Shown one piece after another: positions 52,499 through 61,970 of a stretch of DNA of 64,000 nucleotides. The DNA is from Lacinutrix sp. Bg11-31 (GTDB taxonomy: Bacteria; Bacteroidota; Bacteroidia; Flavobacteriales; Flavobacteriaceae), in NCBI RefSeq assembly GCF_002831665.1, contig NZ_CP025118.1:3596001-3660000 (forward strand). The letters are read 5' to 3'. The notes under the pieces are model-generated. The model saw nothing but the letters and a program-made list of their open reading frames with translations, was not told the DNA's origin and made no database searches. Made by a program: the position numbers and the translations under genes. Position 1 is the stretch's first letter. Each line of letters starts with the position of its first letter.

Positions 52499-52561
52499 CT
52501 TAAAAATGGAAGTTTATATTTCTAATTACAATAGTAAACATTTCAGCAGAAAAAAGGAATA

Positions 52562-52592
52562 AAAAAACCGAAGACTTTGCTTCGGTTTTTTA
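52562..52592 (-). terminator. Terminator of the collagen-like lipoprotein gene
   Basis: AAAAACCGAAG and CTTCGGTTTTT pair around a short loop, 20 bases past the gene's stop. Confidence 0.85.
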
Positions 52593-52611
52593 ATAAAAAC
52601 AGGCTTGTTAA

Positions 52612-53181
52612 TTATTTTGAAATATTATAATAATTGGTTACTGCATTGAAATCGTTAATATCAATTCCTGCTTGATTTAGCGTATTGTAAATTTGTTGTT
52701 TGCCATTACTGGTTTTACTTGTACTAGTAGATTCTATAATTACAATCTTAAGAGTATCAATATCACCAGCACTAATGCTGTGCGAGCTTCCGTCTCCACC
52801 ATCTACATAATCTAAGGCGTAAAAACCAACACCTATAGTTACAGATACACTAAAAGGTATAATGTCTTGAACGGCAGGTAATGGGTGCCAATTTGCACCT
52901 CGTTTAATATAACCTAATACTACATCGTTATCTATTACATCTTGAGTTAGTTCTGGAACAGTTACATCGTCAAAGCTTCCAGAAGCTGCAGACATATCGA
53001 ATGTTAGCACTTCTACATTTGCATTTCCATCTGTGCCATCTGCACCATTTGCTCCAGTTATTCCTTGTTCGCCTTGTGGCCCTGCAGTTCCATCTTCTGT
53101 AGAACACGAGAAGCTAAAAGCGACTATTAAAGCTAAGACTACATACTTTGTTTTTGAGATTGTTGATTTAATTGTTTTCAT
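52612..53181 (-). CDS. Lipoprotein with short collagen-like stretch
   Basis: 189 residues. Lipobox Cys26 (AFSFSCSTED). Residues 32-49 are a Gly-x-y repeat (GPQGEQGITGANGADGTDG). A beta-rich domain follows with 'VEVLTFDMSAASGSFDDVTVPELTQDVIDNDVVLGYIKRG' and a C-terminal part with 'STSKTSNGKQQIYNTLNQAGIDINDFNAVTNYY'. Function unknown. Its upstream region carries site A of the putative ECF-sigma motif, so it is probably part of the sigma regulon encoded next door. Confidence 0.8.
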   Translation of the reverse strand: MKTIKSTISKTKYVVLALIVAFSFSCSTEDGTAGPQGEQGITGANGADGTDGNANVEVLTFDMSAASGSFDDVTVPELTQDVIDNDVVLGYIKRGANWHPLPAVQDIIPFSVSVTIGVGFYALDYVDGGDGSSHSISAGDIDTLKIVIIESTSTSKTSNGKQQIYNTLNQAGIDINDFNAVTNYYNISK

Positions 53182-53220
53182 AATTTTAAATTTTTAAAAG
53201 GTGATTAATAGTTTATTTAT

Positions 53221-53252
53221 TACTTAATGGGTTGCTATATTTAAAGGTTAAC
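53221..53252 (-). promoter_or_regulatory. Putative ECF-sigma promoter, site A
   Basis: Reverse strand: GTTAAC (53247-53252), 17 bases, CATTAAGTA (53221-53229), 40 bases before the collagen-like lipoprotein start. It shares both boxes and the extended CTTT with site B. Confidence 0.65.
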
Positions 53253-53261
53253 ATGTAGAAT

Positions 53262-53290
53262 AAAAAAAAGCCGAAGCGTTAGCTTCGGCT
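53262..53290 (-). terminator. Terminator of the DUF4412 transcript
   Basis: GCCGAAGC / GCTTCGGC with a GTTA-type four-base loop; in the leftward direction it is followed by a run of T. Confidence 0.85.
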
Positions 53291-53383
53291 CTTAAACAAA
53301 CTAACCTAAAAACAAAATACTATCTGTTAATTATAAGGGAGTAAGTTTTAAGTGTATGGTGTTTTTTGTAAATCTATAATTAT

Positions 53384-54214
53384 TTACATTAGTTTTTTGT
53401 AGCCTGAAGTAGCAATAGCAAAATTTTCCACTTTAAGCGAAACGCACTTCATTGTTGTGGTTTTTGCCTTTCTTTTAGAGGTGTCTGTCATTATTGTTTC
53501 CATTGGTAATCCATTTATCATAGACATCCAACTTTGGTCTATTCCTTTTTTCTGTTTTGTTTTATAAAAAGTTTTAGCAAAAGAAACGCCAGCGCTTTCT
53601 GTAATCCAAACTTTGCCATGCATGTCCTTTCCTTTAACGGCATATTCTTTACATGGATAGCCTAATATACTTTTGGTATTTCCAGTTGCCACTACAGGAT
53701 ATTCGGTTTCTGCTATAGCTTCATCTGTAAGTTCTCCTATATTTAGATTCATAGACATTAGTGTTTTATCACCATTATTATCCATAAACATAAATAGAAC
53801 ATTTTCTTTTAAGTCCATAACAGTAATGGTTTTGTTTCTTGCGTCCGGAATTTCGAAACCTAAAAAATTGTGATCATTATTTAAGTAATAAGCAATATTA
53901 ACTGGTTTTTTACCATTGTCTATTTGCATTACATATTTATGGCTAAATTGATATGTATTAGCAGGAATTGCATTGGACACCCCAAATATGTTTTCATTTT
54001 TATTCTTTGCTTCTTTCTTATTCTTTTTAGAATTATTAAAAGTGGAATCAAAGGCCTTGTCTGTTTCACGTTCTGTTTTATCTTCAACTTTCTTTTCTAA
54101 GGTTTTTTCTACTGCTTTTTCGGCTTTCTTTGCAAGTTTCTTCCAAATTTGTGCTTCAGTATTTGTGCTAAAACAAATAGTAATAATGATTAATAGTGCT
54201 TTTAAGGTTTTCAT
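53384..54214 (-). CDS. DUF4412 exported protein
   Basis: 276 residues. Signal peptide 1-21. A Lys/Glu-rich coiled region follows (about 23-75, 'KKAEKAVEKTLEKKVEDKTERETDKAF'), then a DUF4412 domain with 'YPVVATGNTKSILGYPCKEYAVKGKDMHGKVWITESAGVSF'. Function unknown. It lies downstream of a short secreted-peptide ORF and probably shares its promoter (site B). Confidence 0.85.
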   Translation of the reverse strand: MKTLKALLIIITICFSTNTEAQIWKKLAKKAEKAVEKTLEKKVEDKTERETDKAFDSTFNNSKKNKKEAKNKNENIFGVSNAIPANTYQFSHKYVMQIDNGKKPVNIAYYLNNDHNFLGFEIPDARNKTITVMDLKENVLFMFMDNNGDKTLMSMNLNIGELTDEAIAETEYPVVATGNTKSILGYPCKEYAVKGKDMHGKVWITESAGVSFAKTFYKTKQKKGIDQSWMSMINGLPMETIMTDTSKRKAKTTTMKCVSLKVENFAIATSGYKKLM

Positions 54215-54314
54215 TTTAAAATATTTATGGATTATTGTGATTGTTTTGTATTCAGTTTTTTTGTGCTTCAGATAAATCTACTTTTTCTAAAAGATCTAAA
54301 TAATCTATAGGTTT

Positions 54315-54488
54315 TTAATTGGCACTATCTTCTAAGGTTTCCTCATAATTGCTAATTAATACCTTGGTTTGTATGCTTAACAAATTGTCTTTTTTAACTA
54401 TTAAAGAGACTGTTTCCTTTTCTTGAGCTATTATAATTATTGCAAAAGCATAGGCTAGTAGTGCTAACAGTAATTTTAATAGTTTCAT
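54315..54488 (-). CDS. Short secreted peptide, possibly truncated by an in-frame stop
   Basis: 57 residues, starting at ATG 54488: signal-like 'MKLLKLLLALLAYAFAIIIIAQEKE' then 'TVSLIVKKDNLLSIQTKVLISNYEETLEDSAN'. After the TAA the same frame stays open for 20 more codons ('KPIDYLDLLEKVDLSEAQKN') to a TGA at 54252-54254. That tail looks coding. Either the gene was longer and has been broken, or the tail is chance. Site B sits 25 bases upstream. Confidence 0.6.
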   Translation of the reverse strand: MKLLKLLLALLAYAFAIIIIAQEKETVSLIVKKDNLLSIQTKVLISNYEETLEDSAN

Positions 54489-54512
54489 AATTAATAGTAT
54501 TAAGTTGTTTTC

Positions 54513-54543
54513 TACTTAATGTGTTAAGAAAGAAAAGGTTAAC
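54513..54543 (-). promoter_or_regulatory. Putative ECF-sigma promoter, site B
   Basis: Reverse strand: GTTAAC (54538-54543), 16 bases, CATTAAGTA (54513-54521), 24 bases before the short peptide start and upstream of the DUF4412 gene. Confidence 0.65.
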
Positions 54544-54576
54544 AGAATTGATTTTTTTATTGGAAAAAACTTAATT

Positions 54577-54584
54577 TAGCTTTG
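54577..54584 (+). promoter_or_regulatory. -7 element of the sigma gene promoter
   Basis: TAGCTTTG is a perfect TAnnTTTG, 34 bases before the sigma start. No well-spaced TTG accompanies it (spacings 14 and 26). Confidence 0.5.
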
Positions 54585-54589
54585 AAGGT

Positions 54590-54618
54590 GTTAACCTATT
54601 AATCAGTTCTGCCATTAA
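54590..54618 (+). promoter_or_regulatory. GTTAAC-N17-CATTAA copy abutting the sigma start codon (site E)
   Basis: GTTAAC (54590-54595), 17 bases, CATTAA (54613-54618), immediately before ATG 54619. It matches sites A and B in both boxes. Its position would start transcription inside the gene, so it is more likely an operator-like copy or a coincidence than the gene's own promoter. Confidence 0.4.
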
Positions 54619-55185
54619 ATGATAAACCAACAGGAAAACAATATTCTGGAAGATTTAAAACATGGATCTCAGCAAACACTTAGAAAAGTGTATGAAGACA
54701 ATAGAGAGAAGTTTATAAATTTTGCAAGACGCTATAATCTACCGCAAGATGATGTGGTCGACGTTTACCAAGATGCTTATGTTATTTTTTATAATAATGT
54801 AATGTCTGGTAAAATTGAAACAATGACAAGTAGTGTTTCTACCTATTTATTTAGTGTTGGAAAGTATTTAATTTTCGATAAAATGAAAAAGAATAGCAAA
54901 AAAGCGGGTCCTAATTTTGATTTGGCTATTGTTAGAGATGCAGATGAAATTTTAGACACTATAGAAATTGAAGAACAAACATTAACTCATGAACAAGAAT
55001 TATTGCGTAAACATTTTTCGAGTTTAGGAAAACAGTGTCAAGAATTGTTAAACCTATTTTATTATCGAGGATTTACCATAAAAGATATTTTAGAACACGG
55101 CAATTATAATAATGAAAATGTGATTAAAAGTGCAAAATCACGTTGTATGAAGACCCTTAAAGCACGTATTAATAGCAACATATAA
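54619..55185 (+). CDS. ECF-type sigma-70 factor
   Basis: 188 residues. Sigma region 2 (about 22-95, 'FINFARRYNLPQDDVVDVYQDAYVIFYNNV', 'VSTYLFSVGKYLIFDKM') and region 4 (about 125-180, 'LGKQCQELLNLFYYRGFTIKDILEHGNYNNENVIKSAKSRCMKTLKARI'). No region 3 or extension. The next gene, an anti-sigma-like membrane protein, overlaps its stop by one base (TAATG), the classical sigma/anti-sigma arrangement. It likely drives genes bearing GTTAAC-N16/17-CATTAAGTA (inference). Confidence 0.92.
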   Translation: MINQQENNILEDLKHGSQQTLRKVYEDNREKFINFARRYNLPQDDVVDVYQDAYVIFYNNVMSGKIETMTSSVSTYLFSVGKYLIFDKMKKNSKKAGPNFDLAIVRDADEILDTIEIEEQTLTHEQELLRKHFSSLGKQCQELLNLFYYRGFTIKDILEHGNYNNENVIKSAKSRCMKTLKARINSNI

Positions 55186-55913
55186 TGACTAACGAAGACC
55201 TACTATATCGCTACTTTTCTAATAGTTTGACTGAAAACGAACTAATAGATTTTAACAAACGCATAGAAACAGACGCTGAGTTTAAAGCCGATTTTGAATT
55301 TGAAAATAATTTAAAACAGGCTATAAAACAAAACAACACTACCGAGTTAAAAGAAAAATTAAAAGTTTTTGAAGCTGAAATTTCCGTAAAAGAACCTAGA
55401 ACTACTAAGCCCCAATTTAATTGGCGAATAGCCGCATCAATAGTTTTGTTTATAGGAGCTGGCTGGTTTGGTTATAATGCTCTTTTTGGGGTAGACTACA
55501 ATAATATTTATAACGCTAATTTTAATAATTATCCAAACACAGAGTTTACTATTACACGAAGTGATACTGTAGATTCGTATGAGCGAAAAGCATTTGTTGC
55601 TTACGAAGCTCAAGATTATGATAATGCAATTTTAAATTTTAATACCATTCCAGTAGCGGAACAAAAAGGATATCAAGATTTTTATGTAGCGTTATCTTAT
55701 TTAAATAATAATGATTCTGAAAAAGCAAAGGACTTATTTAAAAAGACAGTTGCTTACAACAAAATGTTTGTAGCAGAGTCTCATTGGTATTTGGCATTAG
55801 TAGCTATTAAACAAAAAGATAAAATAGCAGCAATAAAACAGCTTAGAATTTTACTTGAGAATTTCGATTATAATAAATCTAAAGCAGAAGTTTTACTAAA
55901 AGAGCTACATTAA
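55185..55913 (+). CDS. Anti-sigma-like membrane protein with periplasmic TPRs
   Basis: 242 residues. Cytoplasmic N-terminal part (1-78, 'EDLLYRYFSNSLTENELIDFNKRIETDAEFKADFEFE', zinc-free anti-sigma style), membrane helix 82-100, then TPR-like periplasmic repeats ('AFVAYEAQDYDNAILNFNTIPVAEQKGYQDFYVALSYLNNNDSEKAKDLFKKTV'). Its start overlaps the sigma stop, and its own stop overlaps the stop of the converging CHAT gene by 3 bases. Predicted to hold the sigma factor at the inner membrane. Confidence 0.82.
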   Translation: MTNEDLLYRYFSNSLTENELIDFNKRIETDAEFKADFEFENNLKQAIKQNNTTELKEKLKVFEAEISVKEPRTTKPQFNWRIAASIVLFIGAGWFGYNALFGVDYNNIYNANFNNYPNTEFTITRSDTVDSYERKAFVAYEAQDYDNAILNFNTIPVAEQKGYQDFYVALSYLNNNDSEKAKDLFKKTVAYNKMFVAESHWYLALVAIKQKDKIAAIKQLRILLENFDYNKSKAEVLLKELH

Positions 55914-58660
55914 TTTTTTCGCTTTATATATAGGAGTAGAAGTAAAAGTAGCACAACTGTTAATCCAATCCAGAGCCAATAGTTGGTAGTGTTTAAAACT
56001 GAAGTGTTTCCAGAAATAACAAAGCCAGACCAATAATAAGGATGTACTAAAGCATTTTGCCTGTTTGTATTTAAAAATGCTAATTGTGCTTTTTGTAAAG
56101 CAGAATTTTTAGTTTCCTTTTTAGATAGGTTTTTGTAAAAACTATCCATAATGTTTAAGGACGACGCATCATTTATTTTCCATAAAGTACTTGAGATACT
56201 TGCTGCTCCACTAAAGTAAAATCCACGAGCAAGGCTCAAAAAACCCTCACCACGTTTTAGACTTCCTATACCACTTTCGCATGCACTTAAGGTTACTAAA
56301 TTAGAATTGAGGTTTAAGTTATACAAATCGCTTACATATAATAAGTTGTTGTTTGCTTTATTTGGTTGAAATGCTAAATACGAATATTCTGGAGTTTCAT
56401 CATTTAAAACTGCATGAGTTGCAAAATGTAGGATTCCGTACTTATTGCTTTCTGTATTGAAATTTTCTAGTGTAGACTGGTTGTTTATTAATGATTTTCC
56501 TGTAAAGTAATTTAAAATTGCTGTCGCTTCAGTTTCGTTATTTGGTAAAGGTAATAGGGAAGAGGCTGTGTTGCTAAAACTAGGAGCAAAGGCTAGAACT
56601 TTATTATTTACACCTTTTTTTTCTGTAAGTTGTTTTAATAGTGTTGCCGAATTTGCATAGCTAATTGCGTAATCTTCTACCAAATATTTAGTTTTATCTA
56701 AATTTGTATTTAAGCCAGAAAACGGAATGTAATTAAGTAATCCGTCTGCAATTATAATAATATTTTTTTGTTTAATATTTTCTAAACTTGGCGCTACTAA
56801 TTTCTTATAGAGATTATGTGTTTTGTTGTTTAAAACCCTAAGATTAGACTTTGGGTTGTTAAGCATTTGGTAGATTGTAATAATCTCGTTATTAAAATCT
56901 GTATCGATTTTAAATTGCTGTATTGTTTTAGAGTTTTTGGTAATTGCAATTGTGTAAATAGCATTGTTGCCATAAAAATAGGATAGTAAAATATCTTTTG
57001 GTTTTAATAGTTTTTGGAAGTTGGGTATAGAGACTACTTGCGAGTTGTATTTTAAATCATAATAATTTTTATAATTAGTTTCAATAGTAGTTATAAGTTC
57101 TCTATACTCGTTTTTTAATTGAAATAATGAATCTTGTAAAGCATCGACTTTAGTTTGATTAATTTGTTTTTCGGTATTGTTTATTTTCGATTTTAATACT
57201 TGCTCTTGCTCAATAATCTCTTTTGGTATATTAGCAAATGTAGTTGCTTTAGTACTTATAATAGCTTCTAGTAATAATACAGATTTGCTTTTTTCGGCAT
57301 AAAAGAAAGCTTTGTCTATAAGTGAATCTTGTTTTGTTTTTTTATACAAATTGTAAGATGCTTCTAATCCAGACTCGAAAACAGGAAAAGCCTCTTCCAT
57401 TAAAAAGAGTTTATCTGTGTTATTTTTAAAGCTAGGTTTTAAAATATCTAAAGTTTGTATTGCTTGATTTGCAATTGTAATGCTTTCGGAGTTATTAGCC
57501 AGTACATTTAAAATTTGTGCTTTGTTTTTTAAAATTTTTAAAACTGAAGTTTGGTTTATTGTTGATGGGTTTTCGTTTCTAGAAAATTGCTGCAATGCTA
57601 AATTGTAATTTTCTAAAGCTTTATCTGGGTTATTAAATTTTGTATGCAGTAAGCCAATTTCATTGTACGCTTCGGCAATATCATTATGTGGTAGGTTTTT
57701 CCATTTTTGCTTTATAAGTTTTAAAGCAGTTTGTAATTCTATTTCTGCTTCTGGATAGTTGTTTTTAGCTTGCAGAATTTTAGCTTTTGCTTTGTGAAAA
57801 ACATGCCATCTCGGATGATTTTCTACTAAATTATTTTTTATTGTCTTTAGATAATAATCAGCACTATCTAATTGTTTTGTGTTTAAATAATTTTCTAATA
57901 AATGGTTTGCTTCGGTTATAATACTACTAGAACTCCCATTGTTTTCTAGATTATGTTTAAGAGATTTTTTAAAGTATTGATTAGATAAAGTATATTTTTT
58001 TTGGCTTTTTAAAACTTCGGCTAGTAAGCTGTATGTTCTATTTATTCTTTTAATATCATCTGCTTTTTTTAGTTCAAGTATTTCTATGCTTTTTTTATAA
58101 TACTCTTTTGCTAAATCATATTTCCCGTCATTAAAATACGTTTTAGCTACAAAGCTATATGCACTTGTTAATAGCTCGGTATGATACGAATTCAATTCTT
58201 CGGTTTTTAAATTTTTGGTAGTATTAATTATCTTTTTAAATGCTTTTCTAGATTTGGCATAATCATTTATTATAAAGTAATAGATACCCTTATCTTGGTT
58301 TATAGAATTGGTGTAGAATAAAGCGTTTTCTGTTTCGTTTAATGCTTTTTTATTTTTTATTAGAATTGAATCCAGTTGTATGAAATTGACTTTCATTTTA
58401 TCTAAATCGTAAAAATGGGCTGCACTTTTGTTAAAAGCGTTCAAGCTATTTATTAAAGATTCGAAATCATTTTTTTTTGTTGCTTCGAAATTTATTTTAT
58501 TAAAATAGTGGTATGCAGAATCTTTGTTAGAATACACATGTTTATATGCTTTTGTATATAGAGCATACATCTTATTCTCATAAATAGAATCATTAGTATT
58601 TTGACCAATAGTTTGATTTATTGAAAATAAAAGAAATAAAATAAGCAAATTAATTCTCAT
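55910..58660 (-). CDS. TPR-CHAT protease-like protein, secreted and C-terminally anchored
   Basis: 916 residues. Signal peptide 1-20; TPR repeats about 30-430; coiled segment 470-540; CHAT domain about 560-890 with the catalytic pair His749 in LHFATHA and Cys794 in LSACESGIG, preceded by 'IIIIADGLLNYIPFSGL'; C-terminal membrane helix 893-911 and a basic tail (IKRKN). The topology puts the protease-like domain outside the cytoplasm. CHAT domains are caspase-like peptidases found in signalling and defence. Its start codon follows directly after the T tract of an intrinsic terminator. Encoded convergently with the sigma/anti-sigma genes. Confidence 0.92.
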   Translation of the reverse strand: MRINLLILFLLFSINQTIGQNTNDSIYENKMYALYTKAYKHVYSNKDSAYHYFNKINFEATKKNDFESLINSLNAFNKSAAHFYDLDKMKVNFIQLDSILIKNKKALNETENALFYTNSINQDKGIYYFIINDYAKSRKAFKKIINTTKNLKTEELNSYHTELLTSAYSFVAKTYFNDGKYDLAKEYYKKSIEILELKKADDIKRINRTYSLLAEVLKSQKKYTLSNQYFKKSLKHNLENNGSSSSIITEANHLLENYLNTKQLDSADYYLKTIKNNLVENHPRWHVFHKAKAKILQAKNNYPEAEIELQTALKLIKQKWKNLPHNDIAEAYNEIGLLHTKFNNPDKALENYNLALQQFSRNENPSTINQTSVLKILKNKAQILNVLANNSESITIANQAIQTLDILKPSFKNNTDKLFLMEEAFPVFESGLEASYNLYKKTKQDSLIDKAFFYAEKSKSVLLLEAIISTKATTFANIPKEIIEQEQVLKSKINNTEKQINQTKVDALQDSLFQLKNEYRELITTIETNYKNYYDLKYNSQVVSIPNFQKLLKPKDILLSYFYGNNAIYTIAITKNSKTIQQFKIDTDFNNEIITIYQMLNNPKSNLRVLNNKTHNLYKKLVAPSLENIKQKNIIIIADGLLNYIPFSGLNTNLDKTKYLVEDYAISYANSATLLKQLTEKKGVNNKVLAFAPSFSNTASSLLPLPNNETEATAILNYFTGKSLINNQSTLENFNTESNKYGILHFATHAVLNDETPEYSYLAFQPNKANNNLLYVSDLYNLNLNSNLVTLSACESGIGSLKRGEGFLSLARGFYFSGAASISSTLWKINDASSLNIMDSFYKNLSKKETKNSALQKAQLAFLNTNRQNALVHPYYWSGFVISGNTSVLNTTNYWLWIGLTVVLLLLLLLYIKRKN

Positions 58661-58691
58661 AAAAAAAAGTCTTCAAAACGAATTGAAGACT
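58661..58691 (-). terminator. Terminator directly in front of the CHAT start codon
   Basis: Leftward reading: AGTCTTCAA (58683-58691) and TTGAAGACT (58668-58676), six-base loop, then a T run that ends exactly at the ATG of the CHAT gene (58658-58660). Confidence 0.85.
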
Positions 58692-58733
58692 AATTTACAA
58701 ATATTTAAGTTATTAATATACAGTTGATTATTC

Positions 58734-59378
58734 TTATAGATCCTGAAAATTGCTTAGAAACGAATAGCTGCCATTTTCTGTTTGTACTGTAATCATAGCC
58801 TCACCAGTGAAATCGCTTTGAGATAATTCAAAAGTTTGATATCTACCTAAACCATTAGTATTTGCTATTGTGCTTATTTGCGAATTAGCATTTGTGTTTA
58901 TTAAAGTACTTTGATCTGCAACAGTGGTAATAGTTAAACTCATTTGGTCTGTTCCAGGTTGCAAAACAATATTACTAACAGTATTATATATGTCTAAACA
59001 TAAACAAGGCAATGGAGCAGGAAGAGGAGGAATAACAGGATTTATAATAAAAAATGCGTTTTCAGGACTAACAATAGAGTTAGCTTCTTCTTCGTTATTT
59101 ACTATTTGGGCACTGGCTTCTACTATGCTTGCTTGCGCATCATTATAACCAGGATCGCTATCTGGAATTTGCTGCCAAGCTACTATTTGCAATTCTAACT
59201 CTGTGTTTTTTGTTTCTAAATAATATATACGTAAGTCGCCTTCGTAAATATAATTGGTAGTTGTAAATTCTACTTGTTCAGGTTCTTGTTCTGGGTTAAG
59301 GGTATCATCTTCATCACAACTTACATTGGTAAAAAAAATAAAGGATAATACTGCTAATACTACATAACGTTTTTTCAT
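58734..59378 (-). CDS. Hypothetical lipoprotein upstream of the CHAT gene
   Basis: 214 residues. Lipobox Cys21 (TNVSCDED). The mature part is acidic and beta-rich ('EQVEFTTTNYIYEGDLRIYYLETKNTELELQIVAWQQ', 'QMSLTITTVADQSTLINTNANSQISTIANTNGLGRY') with a Pro-rich loop and a CLC motif ('PVIPPLPAPLPCLCLDIY'). No family recognised. Site D of the putative sigma motif lies 32 bases before its start, and it is followed by a terminator and then the CHAT gene. Confidence 0.75.
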   Translation of the reverse strand: MKKRYVVLAVLSFIFFTNVSCDEDDTLNPEQEPEQVEFTTTNYIYEGDLRIYYLETKNTELELQIVAWQQIPDSDPGYNDAQASIVEASAQIVNNEEEANSIVSPENAFFIINPVIPPLPAPLPCLCLDIYNTVSNIVLQPGTDQMSLTITTVADQSTLINTNANSQISTIANTNGLGRYQTFELSQSDFTGEAMITVQTENGSYSFLSNFQDL

Positions 59379-59409
59379 GGTTTTTAATGTTTAAAAGTTG
59401 TTTTGTAGT

Positions 59410-59441
59410 TAGTTTATAATATAGGAAGTATTAAAGTTAAC
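59410..59441 (-). promoter_or_regulatory. Putative ECF-sigma promoter, site D (weaker)
   Basis: Reverse strand: GTTAAC (59436-59441), 17 bases, TATAAACTA (59410-59418), which matches CATTAAGTA at six of nine positions, 31 bases before the lipoprotein start. Confidence 0.45.
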
Positions 59442-59531
59442 ATTTTTAATATGAAAAATAACTAAAATTGTGTGAATAGCCTGATTGTGTGTTTTTTAGG
59501 TAGGTTGTTTTATATAGTTGGTAAATAGTGG

Positions 59532-61970
59532 TTAATTAATCTCGTACAATAAAATACTATTACTATTACCTTTAGTAACAAACTCTAAAGACTTATCTCT
59601 GTCAATATTATCTAATTCTATAGATGAATTTCCATACACAGGAAAATTTTCGATAAGTTTTGCTTGGCTATCAAATAGTAGTACTTTTTGCGATTGTAAA
59701 TCGGTTACAGAAATATAGATTTTATCCTTTATATAAAATATCTTTACAGGAGAGTAATTACCTAAATCTAACTCTAATGTTTCACTTTTTATGTTAAGAA
59801 TATTTTCGTTTTGAGAAGCTAAAGTCTTAGTGGTAGCCGCTAAATGATGGTTTTCTGTTAAATTATATGGTTTAGTGTTAACCTTTCCTTTCTGGTCGAT
59901 ACTAATTATTTTGCCATCTGCAGTTGTAGTTGTAAAGGTGCTGTTATAGCTAAAAACAGGTTCGTTAGATAGCTCTAAATTAGAATCTAGTTTTATTCTA
60001 GTTTGCCCTCTTCTATTTAGAATATTAAGTTTCTTATCTGTTTTAATAAGTATGTAGTCCTTGTTGCCTATTCTAATATGTTGCGGCTGATGGTTAATTG
60101 TATTCTTGGCCGAAGAAAATTTAAAACCCTTAACCGTTTTTCCTTTGGCATCGTATAGCAACACATTCTTACCTTGTGTTACAAAAAGACGATAGTTTTT
60201 CCTTTTATCGTAATCAAAAACAGAAAGAGGTTGTGTAATTTTATCATTAAACTTTAGAGGATAGCCAGTAACATCTCTTCCTGTTCTATCTAGTAAATAA
60301 ACGCGGTTTGGTGTAGCAAACACGAATTGTAATCTTCCATTTTTGTAAATATCTAGTTGTTCTATCTTACCTAGAACAGGACCATTAAGTTGTTTCTTCC
60401 ACAGTATGTTGCCAATATTCGAAATTAAATACAACTTGTTATTTATATCTTGAACTATAATCTCTTTTTGTTTTGTTCTATGGTTGGTTACAAATTGTGG
60501 ATTGTTTAACAAATCTGCATCTAGGCTAATATTTAATAATTCTGTAACAGCATTAGGTTCAATTTTTACTTTGTTCTTTTTAATAGCACCATGAAGGTGT
60601 GCGTAATGTGTATCGTAAACAAATTGCAATGCCGAAATTTTATAATCTTTAAAAGTACTTTCTAAATGAGTGTCTAAATTTAAATCTAGTAAATCTTTAA
60701 GCTTGTCATTACTTAAAATTTGCAAGATTGAAGATTCGTTACTAAGGTCTTTGGTTATATTCTTATAATAATCGCGACTGCTTAAAGTTGTTTTGTTTAA
60801 GTAATTGGCAATAATGTTTTCTAGCGTTTCTGTGTTTTTTGCAAAAATAAAAAACTGATCTATTGTACAATAGTATTTAGCTTCGCTATAATTTATTAAA
60901 GGATAGAAAGTGGTTTCAAATAATTCAGGTTTACTAAAATCGTAAATAGGAACTTGTCTAAAGTTCTCCACCTCATTGTGTTCGCTAACAAGATTGTCTT
61001 TAGTAGAAATAACATCAATAGAGTTTAAAACAATGGCTTGGTTTTCTCCTGTATATATTGTGCCAATTTCAATAATATTATCGAATAAGTTAGTAGTTGT
61101 TGTGCTATCCTCTTTTTTATTGAAAGTATCTAAATTACTTTTAAAGGACTTAAAATCATTAAAAGTGAAGCTCAAAAAACCATCAGAATTATTTGGAGTA
61201 ATTTTAGCTAATTCGTTTTCCTGCGGAACTGTGTTTTTAAAAATATTAATTAACTTTTTAGAGGAATCTAATGCTTTGGTAATTCCATTAAAAAGTATTT
61301 CGTCTTGAGAAATAACGGCATCAATAGAAGTGTAATCACTAAAGTCTTTAAAAGGAAGAGCTTCCGAATTGAAAAAGGATTGTATTAAATTATCATTCGT
61401 GTTACCTAAAATTATCGAAACGGTATTGTCGTTGTTTATAGTATTAATAATTTTCTGGCGTTCTTCATTTTTACTCTTTTTAGTTAAAACAGTTTCTAAA
61501 AGTGTTTTATTAGAAGCTGCAATAGCAATACTGTCTTTAAAAGTAGTATACAGTATTTCGTTATTAAGCGTTATTTTTTGTGCAGGTTTATTTGCAATCT
61601 GTAAAGATTCAATTTTATAATTAGGTAAAGAATCTACAGAGAAAAGATTGTCAACTTGCTTTGTAGAAATTGTAAACTGAAGGCTGTCGTTCTTATCTTT
61701 TAAAAAAGAAAGTACAACTGGGTTTTCGGTGTTTATATGCTCTAAGTAATTTAGTTTTTTTGAAATACTTTTATAGGCTGAAGAAGGCATAATGCCATTA
61801 ATAAAGGCGTTATTATTAATATTGGTTTCTAAACTTTCAGTATCGTTTATAGTCACAATAATTGAAGCATCATCAGGAACAAAATCGTAAATAGATGCTT
61901 TTTTAAAGCTGTTACTATTACAGCTAAATAATAAAGTTAATAGGATTAATATTAGATAAATACGCTTCAT
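59532..61970 (-). CDS. Large lipoprotein with propeller-like C-terminal half
   Basis: 812 residues from ATG 61970 (ten codons shorter than the open frame). Lipobox Cys17 (LLFSCNSN). The N-terminal half (about 25-480) has DUF3352-like repeats of sheet and helix. The C-terminal half (about 490-812) has repeated blade-like units ('NNKLYLISNIGNILWKKQLNGPVLGKIEQLDIYKNGRLQFVFATPNRVYLLDRTGRDVTGYPLKF', 'RLFVTQGKNVLLYDAKGKTVKGFKF', 'DYILIKTDKKLNILNRRGQTRIKL'), a PQQ/WD-like beta propeller. It is encoded 32 bases downstream of rnhB. Function unknown, possibly outer-membrane quality control (speculative). Confidence 0.8.
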   Translation of the reverse strand: MKRIYLILILLTLLFSCNSNSFKKASIYDFVPDDASIIVTINDTESLETNINNNAFINGIMPSSAYKSISKKLNYLEHINTENPVVLSFLKDKNDSLQFTISTKQVDNLFSVDSLPNYKIESLQIANKPAQKITLNNEILYTTFKDSIAIAASNKTLLETVLTKKSKNEERQKIINTINNDNTVSIILGNTNDNLIQSFFNSEALPFKDFSDYTSIDAVISQDEILFNGITKALDSSKKLINIFKNTVPQENELAKITPNNSDGFLSFTFNDFKSFKSNLDTFNKKEDSTTTTNLFDNIIEIGTIYTGENQAIVLNSIDVISTKDNLVSEHNEVENFRQVPIYDFSKPELFETTFYPLINYSEAKYYCTIDQFFIFAKNTETLENIIANYLNKTTLSSRDYYKNITKDLSNESSILQILSNDKLKDLLDLNLDTHLESTFKDYKISALQFVYDTHYAHLHGAIKKNKVKIEPNAVTELLNISLDADLLNNPQFVTNHRTKQKEIIVQDINNKLYLISNIGNILWKKQLNGPVLGKIEQLDIYKNGRLQFVFATPNRVYLLDRTGRDVTGYPLKFNDKITQPLSVFDYDKRKNYRLFVTQGKNVLLYDAKGKTVKGFKFSSAKNTINHQPQHIRIGNKDYILIKTDKKLNILNRRGQTRIKLDSNLELSNEPVFSYNSTFTTTTADGKIISIDQKGKVNTKPYNLTENHHLAATTKTLASQNENILNIKSETLELDLGNYSPVKIFYIKDKIYISVTDLQSQKVLLFDSQAKLIENFPVYGNSSIELDNIDRDKSLEFVTKGNSNSILLYEIN

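Follow-up and report, generated by a model that had tools for sequence, protein, structure and literature searches.

A candidate local ECF sigma regulon with a TPR-CHAT protease homologue and a promoter-like site flush with the sigma start codon in Lacinutrix sp. Bg11-31

We analysed a 64 kb stretch of Lacinutrix sp. Bg11-31 (hereafter the window; positions 3596001-3660000 of a single-contig genome of 3.665 Mb), in which a two-box motif, GTTAAC followed after 16 or 17 bases by CATTAA, surrounds a gene pair for an extracytoplasmic function (ECF) sigma factor and its putative anti-sigma factor. The motif at its sites A, B and D is that of a local ECF regulon. The boxes are probably the -35 and -10 elements of a small regulon built around its own sigma/anti-sigma pair, with release of the sigma factor by a CHAT protease homologue and with autoregulatory loops; that this sigma factor itself reads the motif is, in our judgement, very highly likely. 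A preliminary description of the DNA had proposed the ECF regulon from the sequence of the window, and conservation, strand-specificity and sigma-linked occurrence of the motif all argue for it; those refuting outcomes named with that proposal that could be checked did not materialise. A further site (C) on the sigma gene itself and a proposed part for CHAT in signalling are additions made here. Lacinutrix mariniflava is the closest named relative at the locus, with a sigma factor 94% identical. The genes run collagen-like lipoprotein, DUF4412 protein and 57-amino-acid peptide on the minus strand, ECF sigma factor and putative anti-sigma factor on the plus strand, then TPR-CHAT protein and its upstream lipoprotein on the minus strand.

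53221..53252, minus strand: site A, candidate promoter of the collagen-like lipoprotein gene; -35 GTTAACCTTT, spacer of 17 bases from GTTAAC, -10 CATTAAGTA; 29.9 bits
54513..54543, minus strand: site B, candidate promoter of the 57-amino-acid peptide gene and probably of the DUF4412 gene; spacer of 16 bases; 29.9 bits
59410..59441, minus strand: site D, weak candidate promoter of the lipoprotein-CHAT operon; 17.4 bits
54619..55185, plus strand: ECF sigma factor gene, 188 amino acids; TIGR02937 at 52.0 bits (cut-off 42.9)

Within the window GTTAAC-N14..20-CATTAAGTA has exactly two matches, sites A and B, and none in 100 shuffles; both sites match perfectly in the boxes and in the 17- and 16-base spacers that they had been said to have. 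Their distance to the start codons, put earlier at 24-40 bases, measures 39 bases from the end of site A and 24 from the end of site B. Site D is indeed weaker, with a perfect GTTAAC, the right spacing and a poor -10 (TATAAACTA), yet its position is conserved: 23 of 25 CHAT loci, the window included, carry a CHAT-operon site of at least 10 bits by a matrix partly trained on such sites, which makes site D more credible, and 14 of these 23 lie 640-770 bases from the CHAT start. L048 and L051 showed no CHAT-operon site in the 2.6 kb searched. CHAT-operon sites of Lacinutrix-type loci read GTTAACTTTA, not GTTAACCTTT, perhaps a deliberately weaker variant.

To follow the motif beyond the window we used 25 orthologous loci (494 kb, window excluded) fetched with the sigma protein as query. 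When the 19-base consensus of sites A and B was applied to these held-out loci, 17, 53 and 98 sites were found at up to one, two and three mismatches, against 0, 0 and 0 with the reversed consensus and 0, 0 and 4 with shuffled ones; at up to four mismatches noise emerged (140 sites against 15 reversed and 21 shuffled). The signal was fainter in 45 paralogous-module loci, with 3, 8 and 26 sites at up to two, three and four mismatches against 0, 2 and 29 reversed. A position matrix picked out 131 of the 494 upstream regions at 16 bits or more, while the opposite strand gave 6 and the reversed control none; the matrix was built on 60 sites taken from these loci and is partly circular, so that the held-out consensus test is the cleaner of the two. 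Chance occurrence in AT-rich DNA is ruled out by the window shuffles together with the held-out reversed and shuffled controls. The comparison of promoters in related species that had been suggested showed the boxes conserved ahead of genes of corresponding types at loci labelled Lacinutrix, Olleya, Bizionia, Xanthomarina, Maribacter and Zobellia.

A genome-wide pattern search, also suggested earlier, returned three matches to the strict pattern GTTAACYTT-N12..15-CATTAA in the 3.67 Mb host genome, namely A, B and one within an opposite-strand open reading frame (ORF). A loose pattern gave 12 matches, four of them sites A-D, against 12 when reversed; the detectable regulon is therefore essentially local, and a genome-wide regulon was rejected on this comparison. 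Eight same-genus genomes with a sigma orthologue hold 28 strict matches, of which 21 lie close to that gene, while five same-genus genomes without one hold three, all within ORFs; the reversed pattern has four matches across all 13. A CHAT orthologue (at least 44% identity) is found in the same eight of the 13, in pieces in G008, whereas of the five sigma-less genomes two have no CHAT match and three have none above 40%; across the genus sample the clustered sites thus occur together with the orthologues of both proteins. Outside the genus, 47 other genomes hold nine strict matches in total, and G023, which has a sigma orthologue, holds two. One genome speaks against the regulon: G013, from another genus, has a sigma orthologue and no strict match, though its sigma gene nonetheless carries a site flush with the start codon, with TATTAA. 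Among the distal strict matches inspected, some stand 19-47 bases ahead of genes for secreted or short conserved proteins, whereas others fall within ORFs; a few distal regulon members, suggested by such placement, are possible but unproven. Strict sites in two genomes (G008:C1:553839, locus L063, and G003:C1:696176, locus L079) stand 25 bases before a conserved protein starting MGRVCRE, far from the sigma gene, and this protein is a possible distal member.

Sites lie a median of 25 bases ahead of genes, mostly for lipoproteins and envelope proteins. Grouped by family, the 132 regions scoring at least 14 bits belong most often to collagen-like lipoproteins (33 genes, spread over 22 loci). Next come the sigma gene with 19 and the lipoprotein that precedes CHAT with 15, then 14 DUF4412/OmpA-type proteins, 11 outer-membrane barrels, 8 Kelch-type and 6 subtilase-type lipoproteins, and smaller groups, domains having been checked on single representatives. 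By eye the N-termini of the targets mostly look exported, but not those of a 114-amino-acid family with three members or of the CHAP/NlpC-type protein found in L036. The targets predicted earlier recur across loci, the short peptide least often (three loci).

52612..53181, minus strand: collagen-like lipoprotein gene, target of site A; PF01391 at 18.7 bits, below its cut-off
53384..54214, minus strand: DUF4412 protein gene; PF14371 at 34.1 bits (cut-off 21.6)
54315..54488, minus strand: 57-amino-acid peptide gene, target of site B; L033 and L037 have related genes that also carry a site
58734..59378, minus strand: lipoprotein-like gene upstream of CHAT and downstream of site D

Between the DUF4412 gene and site A the minus strand holds a hairpin, AGCCGAAGC-GTTA-GCTTCGGCT followed by T's (window 53262-53290), likely a terminator separating the two units. 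A copy of the motif with three mismatches at window 59877-59908 (plus strand), antisense within the gene at 59532-61970, is probably due to chance. No named RNA family reached its gathering score within 52500-59600.

The sigma factor matches TIGR02937 over residues 21-182 of its 188 and comprises regions 2 and 4 only, as in ECF sigma factors; against Pfam Sigma70_r2 it scores 22.6 bits, just below the cut-off of 24. The AAC that had been pointed out in the -35 as an ECF-type feature stands (GTTAAC). The -10 reads CATTAA rather than CGT, which according to the available part of PMC8103513 is a hallmark of ECF promoters though not a universal one.

The remaining two proteins of the locus are those through which the sigma factor would be held and freed.

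55185..55913, plus strand: putative anti-sigma factor gene, 242 amino acids; helical N-terminus, borderline membrane segment at 82-100 and TPR domain, judged from position, alignment, model and hydropathy
55910..58660, minus strand: TPR-CHAT protease homologue gene, 916 amino acids; signal-like N-terminus, His749/Cys794 and C-terminal membrane helix

The putative anti-sigma gene directly follows the sigma gene in 25/25 loci, and a structural model of its product predicts four N-terminal helices. Its membrane stretch reaches a hydropathy of at least 1.6 in 7/26 sequences and at least 1.4 in 20/26, always at the same stretch. No curated anti-sigma model scored above cut-off for the 242-amino-acid protein, and a fold search gave no match at E <= 0.001, the 50 matches listed being mainly TPR proteins. 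The CHAT domain scores 202.9 bits against PF12770 (cut-off 24), and His749 and Cys794 are invariant in all 22 aligned CHAT rows. That alignment (A3) was made without L036, whose CHAT is broken, L042, whose contig ends before CHAT, and the near-duplicates L043 and L052, the last two being set aside in alignments A1 and A2 as well. CHAT domains occur in 126 of 247 Bacteroidota genomes sampled. A PDB sequence search with the CHAT domain as query returned only Craspase chains, at E ~0.3.

CHAT lies within 10 kb of 38 of 49 such anti-sigma places in Bacteroidota, where 0.72 would be expected. In the re-examination of these places for dyad and membrane segments the window's own and G013:C19 were omitted and the G023 locus was added, and the catalytic dyad was judged by alignment, since a simple dyad pattern missed variants. 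By analogy with DegS, CHAT may be the protease that makes the first cut and so frees the sigma factor, a role for which we consider the case evenly balanced. CHAT might instead be a regulon output only, an envelope protease or effector, with the anti-sigma factor inactivated by other means such as a TPR ligand or another protease; this is quite plausible, if short of an even chance. Such an output would fit the regulon-type site on the CHAT operon, the 11 of 49 anti-sigma places without CHAT nearby, and a CHAT TPR part and upstream lipoprotein out of step with the sigma factor. It fits less well with an association that persists although the gene order differs (CHAT on the opposite strand in 30 cases, on the same strand in 8), with Csx29, which acts on the inhibitor of an ECF-like sigma factor (as the available part of PMC10028731 reports), or with the chimeric Maribacter locus L048. 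There the sigma factor (84-90%) and the N-terminal part of the anti-sigma factor (74-83%) are typical of the genus, while the anti-sigma TPR domain (34-39%) and the CHAT catalytic part (32-36%) are not, and are nearer the window type (48% and 52%). The chimera fits an interacting anti-sigma/CHAT pair; to judge from the gene arrangement, the tail-to-tail genes could also have moved as one exchanged tract.

The CHAT TPR part of the window (34% identical to L033, whose sigma factor is 87% identical, but 73% to L046, whose sigma factor is 66%) and the lipoprotein upstream of it do not follow the sigma factor in their variation (window 55910-59378 against L033, L035, L037 and L038), as if a lipoprotein-CHAT cassette had been exchanged. 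Co-evolution of the anti-sigma TPR domain with CHAT was rejected as a signal: L045, its anti-sigma cut short in A2, was left out of the test, and the strong raw signal vanished with flanking-gene controls, leaving the L048 chimera as the sole item kept.

A copy of the motif also stands on the sigma gene itself, with its -10 box ending where the start codon begins.

54577..54584, plus strand: TAGCTTTG, a match to the flavobacterial housekeeping box TAnnTTTG (rule from the available part of PMC9723704), with a predicted start near 54589
54590..54621, plus strand: site C, the same candidate promoter on the sigma gene; -10 CATTAA at 54613-54618 abutting the ATG at 54619; 21.2 bits

GTTAAC-N16/17-[C/T/A]A[T/C]TAA directly abuts the ATG, or stops one base short of a GTG, in 29/29 sigma orthologues, and with L014 added in 30/30, nine of which start with GTG. 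Measured from the end of a 9-base -10 to the start codon, the gap is -3 in all 19 called ATG-start sigma genes, against a median of 25 at 113 other sites; ten of these 113 have a gap below 15, six with a downstream Met and four with gaps of 13-14 and no evident second Met. Flush geometry (gap 0 or 1) recurs in 8 of 22 paralogue loci scanned, and L138, L140 and L141, outside that count, look flush by eye. GTTTAC is common to the sigma gene's own site and neighbouring sites in L132, L135 and L136, and the two differ in L177 and L133.

In Flavobacterium psychrophilum the main promoter box lies at -12 to -5 and the leader has a median of 24 bases (PMC9723704, available part). Applied to site C, this geometry places the transcript start within codon 2-3, past the AUG; since the -10 box ends at the ATG, no sigma factor would be translated from such a transcript. 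The predicted housekeeping start falls immediately before GTTAAC, so the holoenzyme carrying the sigma factor (E-sigma) would cover it when bound at site C. Perfect TAnnTTTG is missing from some orthologues, which have a TTAAATTAGC-like element in common instead. We accordingly regard negative autoregulation, through occlusion and a start-less RNA, as the somewhat favoured consequence of the flush site. Site C could conversely be an ordinary positive autoregulatory promoter, the sigma factor being made from a leaderless RNA or a downstream codon. Positive autoregulation is the usual rule for ECF sigma factors (PMC8103513) and 5.5% of RNAs are leaderless in F. psychrophilum (PMC9723704), as far as the available parts of both sources go, but the box would then need to sit within 1-2 bases of the start site, and across the 30 orthologues the next in-frame ATG, GTG or TTG comes at codons 13 to 62, so that its use would delete part of a conserved protein start; we think this unlikely. 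Two further readings are very improbable: binding of GTTAAC by a conventional regulator, the second box being something else, would suit a palindrome such as operators often are but not the fixed 16-17 spacing, the strand-specificity (6/494 on the opposite strand), the placement 25 bases before starts or the link to sigma; and CATTAA as a translation-initiation signal only would suit its abutting the start codon exactly, but favourable context is A at -3 and -6 (available part of PMC6847099), while 21/30 orthologues have T at -3 and 21/30 a pyrimidine at -6, and CATTAA is tied to GTTAAC 16-17 bases upstream.

In most orthologues an A-rich run that is strongly conserved and leads into TTAAATTAGC or TTAATTTAGC lies about 10 bases upstream of site C (window 54565-54580); it is perhaps the main promoter of the sigma gene. 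A leader peptide upstream of the sigma gene, read by eye, was discarded, its frame being interrupted in several orthologues. The host genome has a second ECF sigma/TPR anti-sigma/CHAT set (G000:C1:3144127-3151985, locus L130), whose sigma gene lacks a GTTAAC flush site; by eye, a TTGTTACCC element recurs upstream of L130-related sigma genes in other genomes and is perhaps that group's own promoter.

Taken together, these elements suggest the following circuit. In the resting cell some sigma factor would be made from the housekeeping promoter and held by the anti-sigma factor, which is predicted to span the inner membrane. An envelope signal would activate the TPR-CHAT protein, predicted to be membrane-anchored and periplasmic, and CHAT would cleave the periplasmic part of the anti-sigma factor, like DegS on RseA, freeing the sigma factor. 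E-sigma would transcribe the genes for surface lipoproteins, the DUF4412 protein and the lipoprotein-CHAT operon, giving a positive loop via the protease. At site C it would cover the housekeeping start and make a transcript starting within codon 2-3, with no sigma translation, giving a negative loop.

CHAT beside an ECF sigma factor is not wholly new, with precedents in Csx29/Csx30/CASP-sigma, ECF54 and DdvA. As described in the available part of PMC10028731, Csx29 is a TPR-CHAT protease encoded with an inhibitor and an ECF-like sigma factor whose predicted targets lie in the locus, and it cleaves Csx30, the inhibitor of CASP-sigma; by model, its CHAT fold is like that of the window. The Craspase protease is, however, cytoplasmic, RNA-activated and bound to Cas7-11, whereas the window CHAT has a signal-like N-terminus and a membrane anchor, and cleavage is demonstrated in Craspase and proposed here. 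No Cas family turned up among ten neighbouring proteins scanned, and no search for CRISPR (clustered regularly interspaced short palindromic repeats) was made. DegS/RseA/RpoE of Escherichia coli (PMC10028731, available part) offers the likeness of an anchored periplasmic protease cutting a membrane anti-sigma factor, as proposed here; unlike that system, the window has a caspase-like Cys protease fold in CHAT and a TPR domain in its anti-sigma factor. Proteolysis of the DegS/RseA type starts with this periplasmic cut and goes on to a second one inside the membrane; at the window the predicted topology is what bears on such a sequence. DdvA, the membrane anti-sigma factor of DdvS in Myxococcus xanthus, has a solved structure that resembles TPR-CHAT by fold match, and the PDB sequence search being weak, the DdvA link is a structural one; by that fold match DdvA itself carries the TPR-CHAT-like part, whereas at the window anti-sigma factor and CHAT are separate proteins. 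ECF54 likewise has CHAT and subtilase genes in its context and a proposed role for proteolysis, and in several Maribacter loci a site-bearing subtilase-type lipoprotein gene stands upstream of CHAT; ECF54 is described without an anti-sigma factor in the available part of PMC8999054, whereas the window has a putative one. The SM6 promoters of F. psychrophilum are flavobacterial ECF-type promoters that include that of a sigma/anti-sigma pair, but have CGT as -10 and targets that include type IX secretion system genes (PMC9723704, available part), against CATTAA and mainly local surface proteins here. The open-access literature, which leaves most subscription journals outside its scope, yielded no description of the module or motif, of a separate periplasmic CHAT with a TPR anti-sigma factor in Bacteroidota, or of a start-flush sigma promoter.

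We tentatively propose, as an idea that still has more to say against it than for it, a Bacteroidota module in which a periplasmic TPR-CHAT protein cuts a TPR-bearing membrane anti-sigma factor and the autoregulatory promoter is fused to the sigma start; E-sigma would raise protease production but yield only start-less sigma RNA, and the two loops would give a pulse. If true, an envelope pathway would have in CRISPR Craspase a relative that is cytoplasmic and triggered by RNA. We know of few CHAT domains with an established substrate, and the locus supplies a testable substrate candidate together with a read-out promoter. With the start-flush sigma promoter, negative autoregulation would need no more than a simple DNA arrangement, in a family whose members are usually said to activate themselves, and the motif makes it possible to predict regulons in genera for which transcriptional data are scarce.
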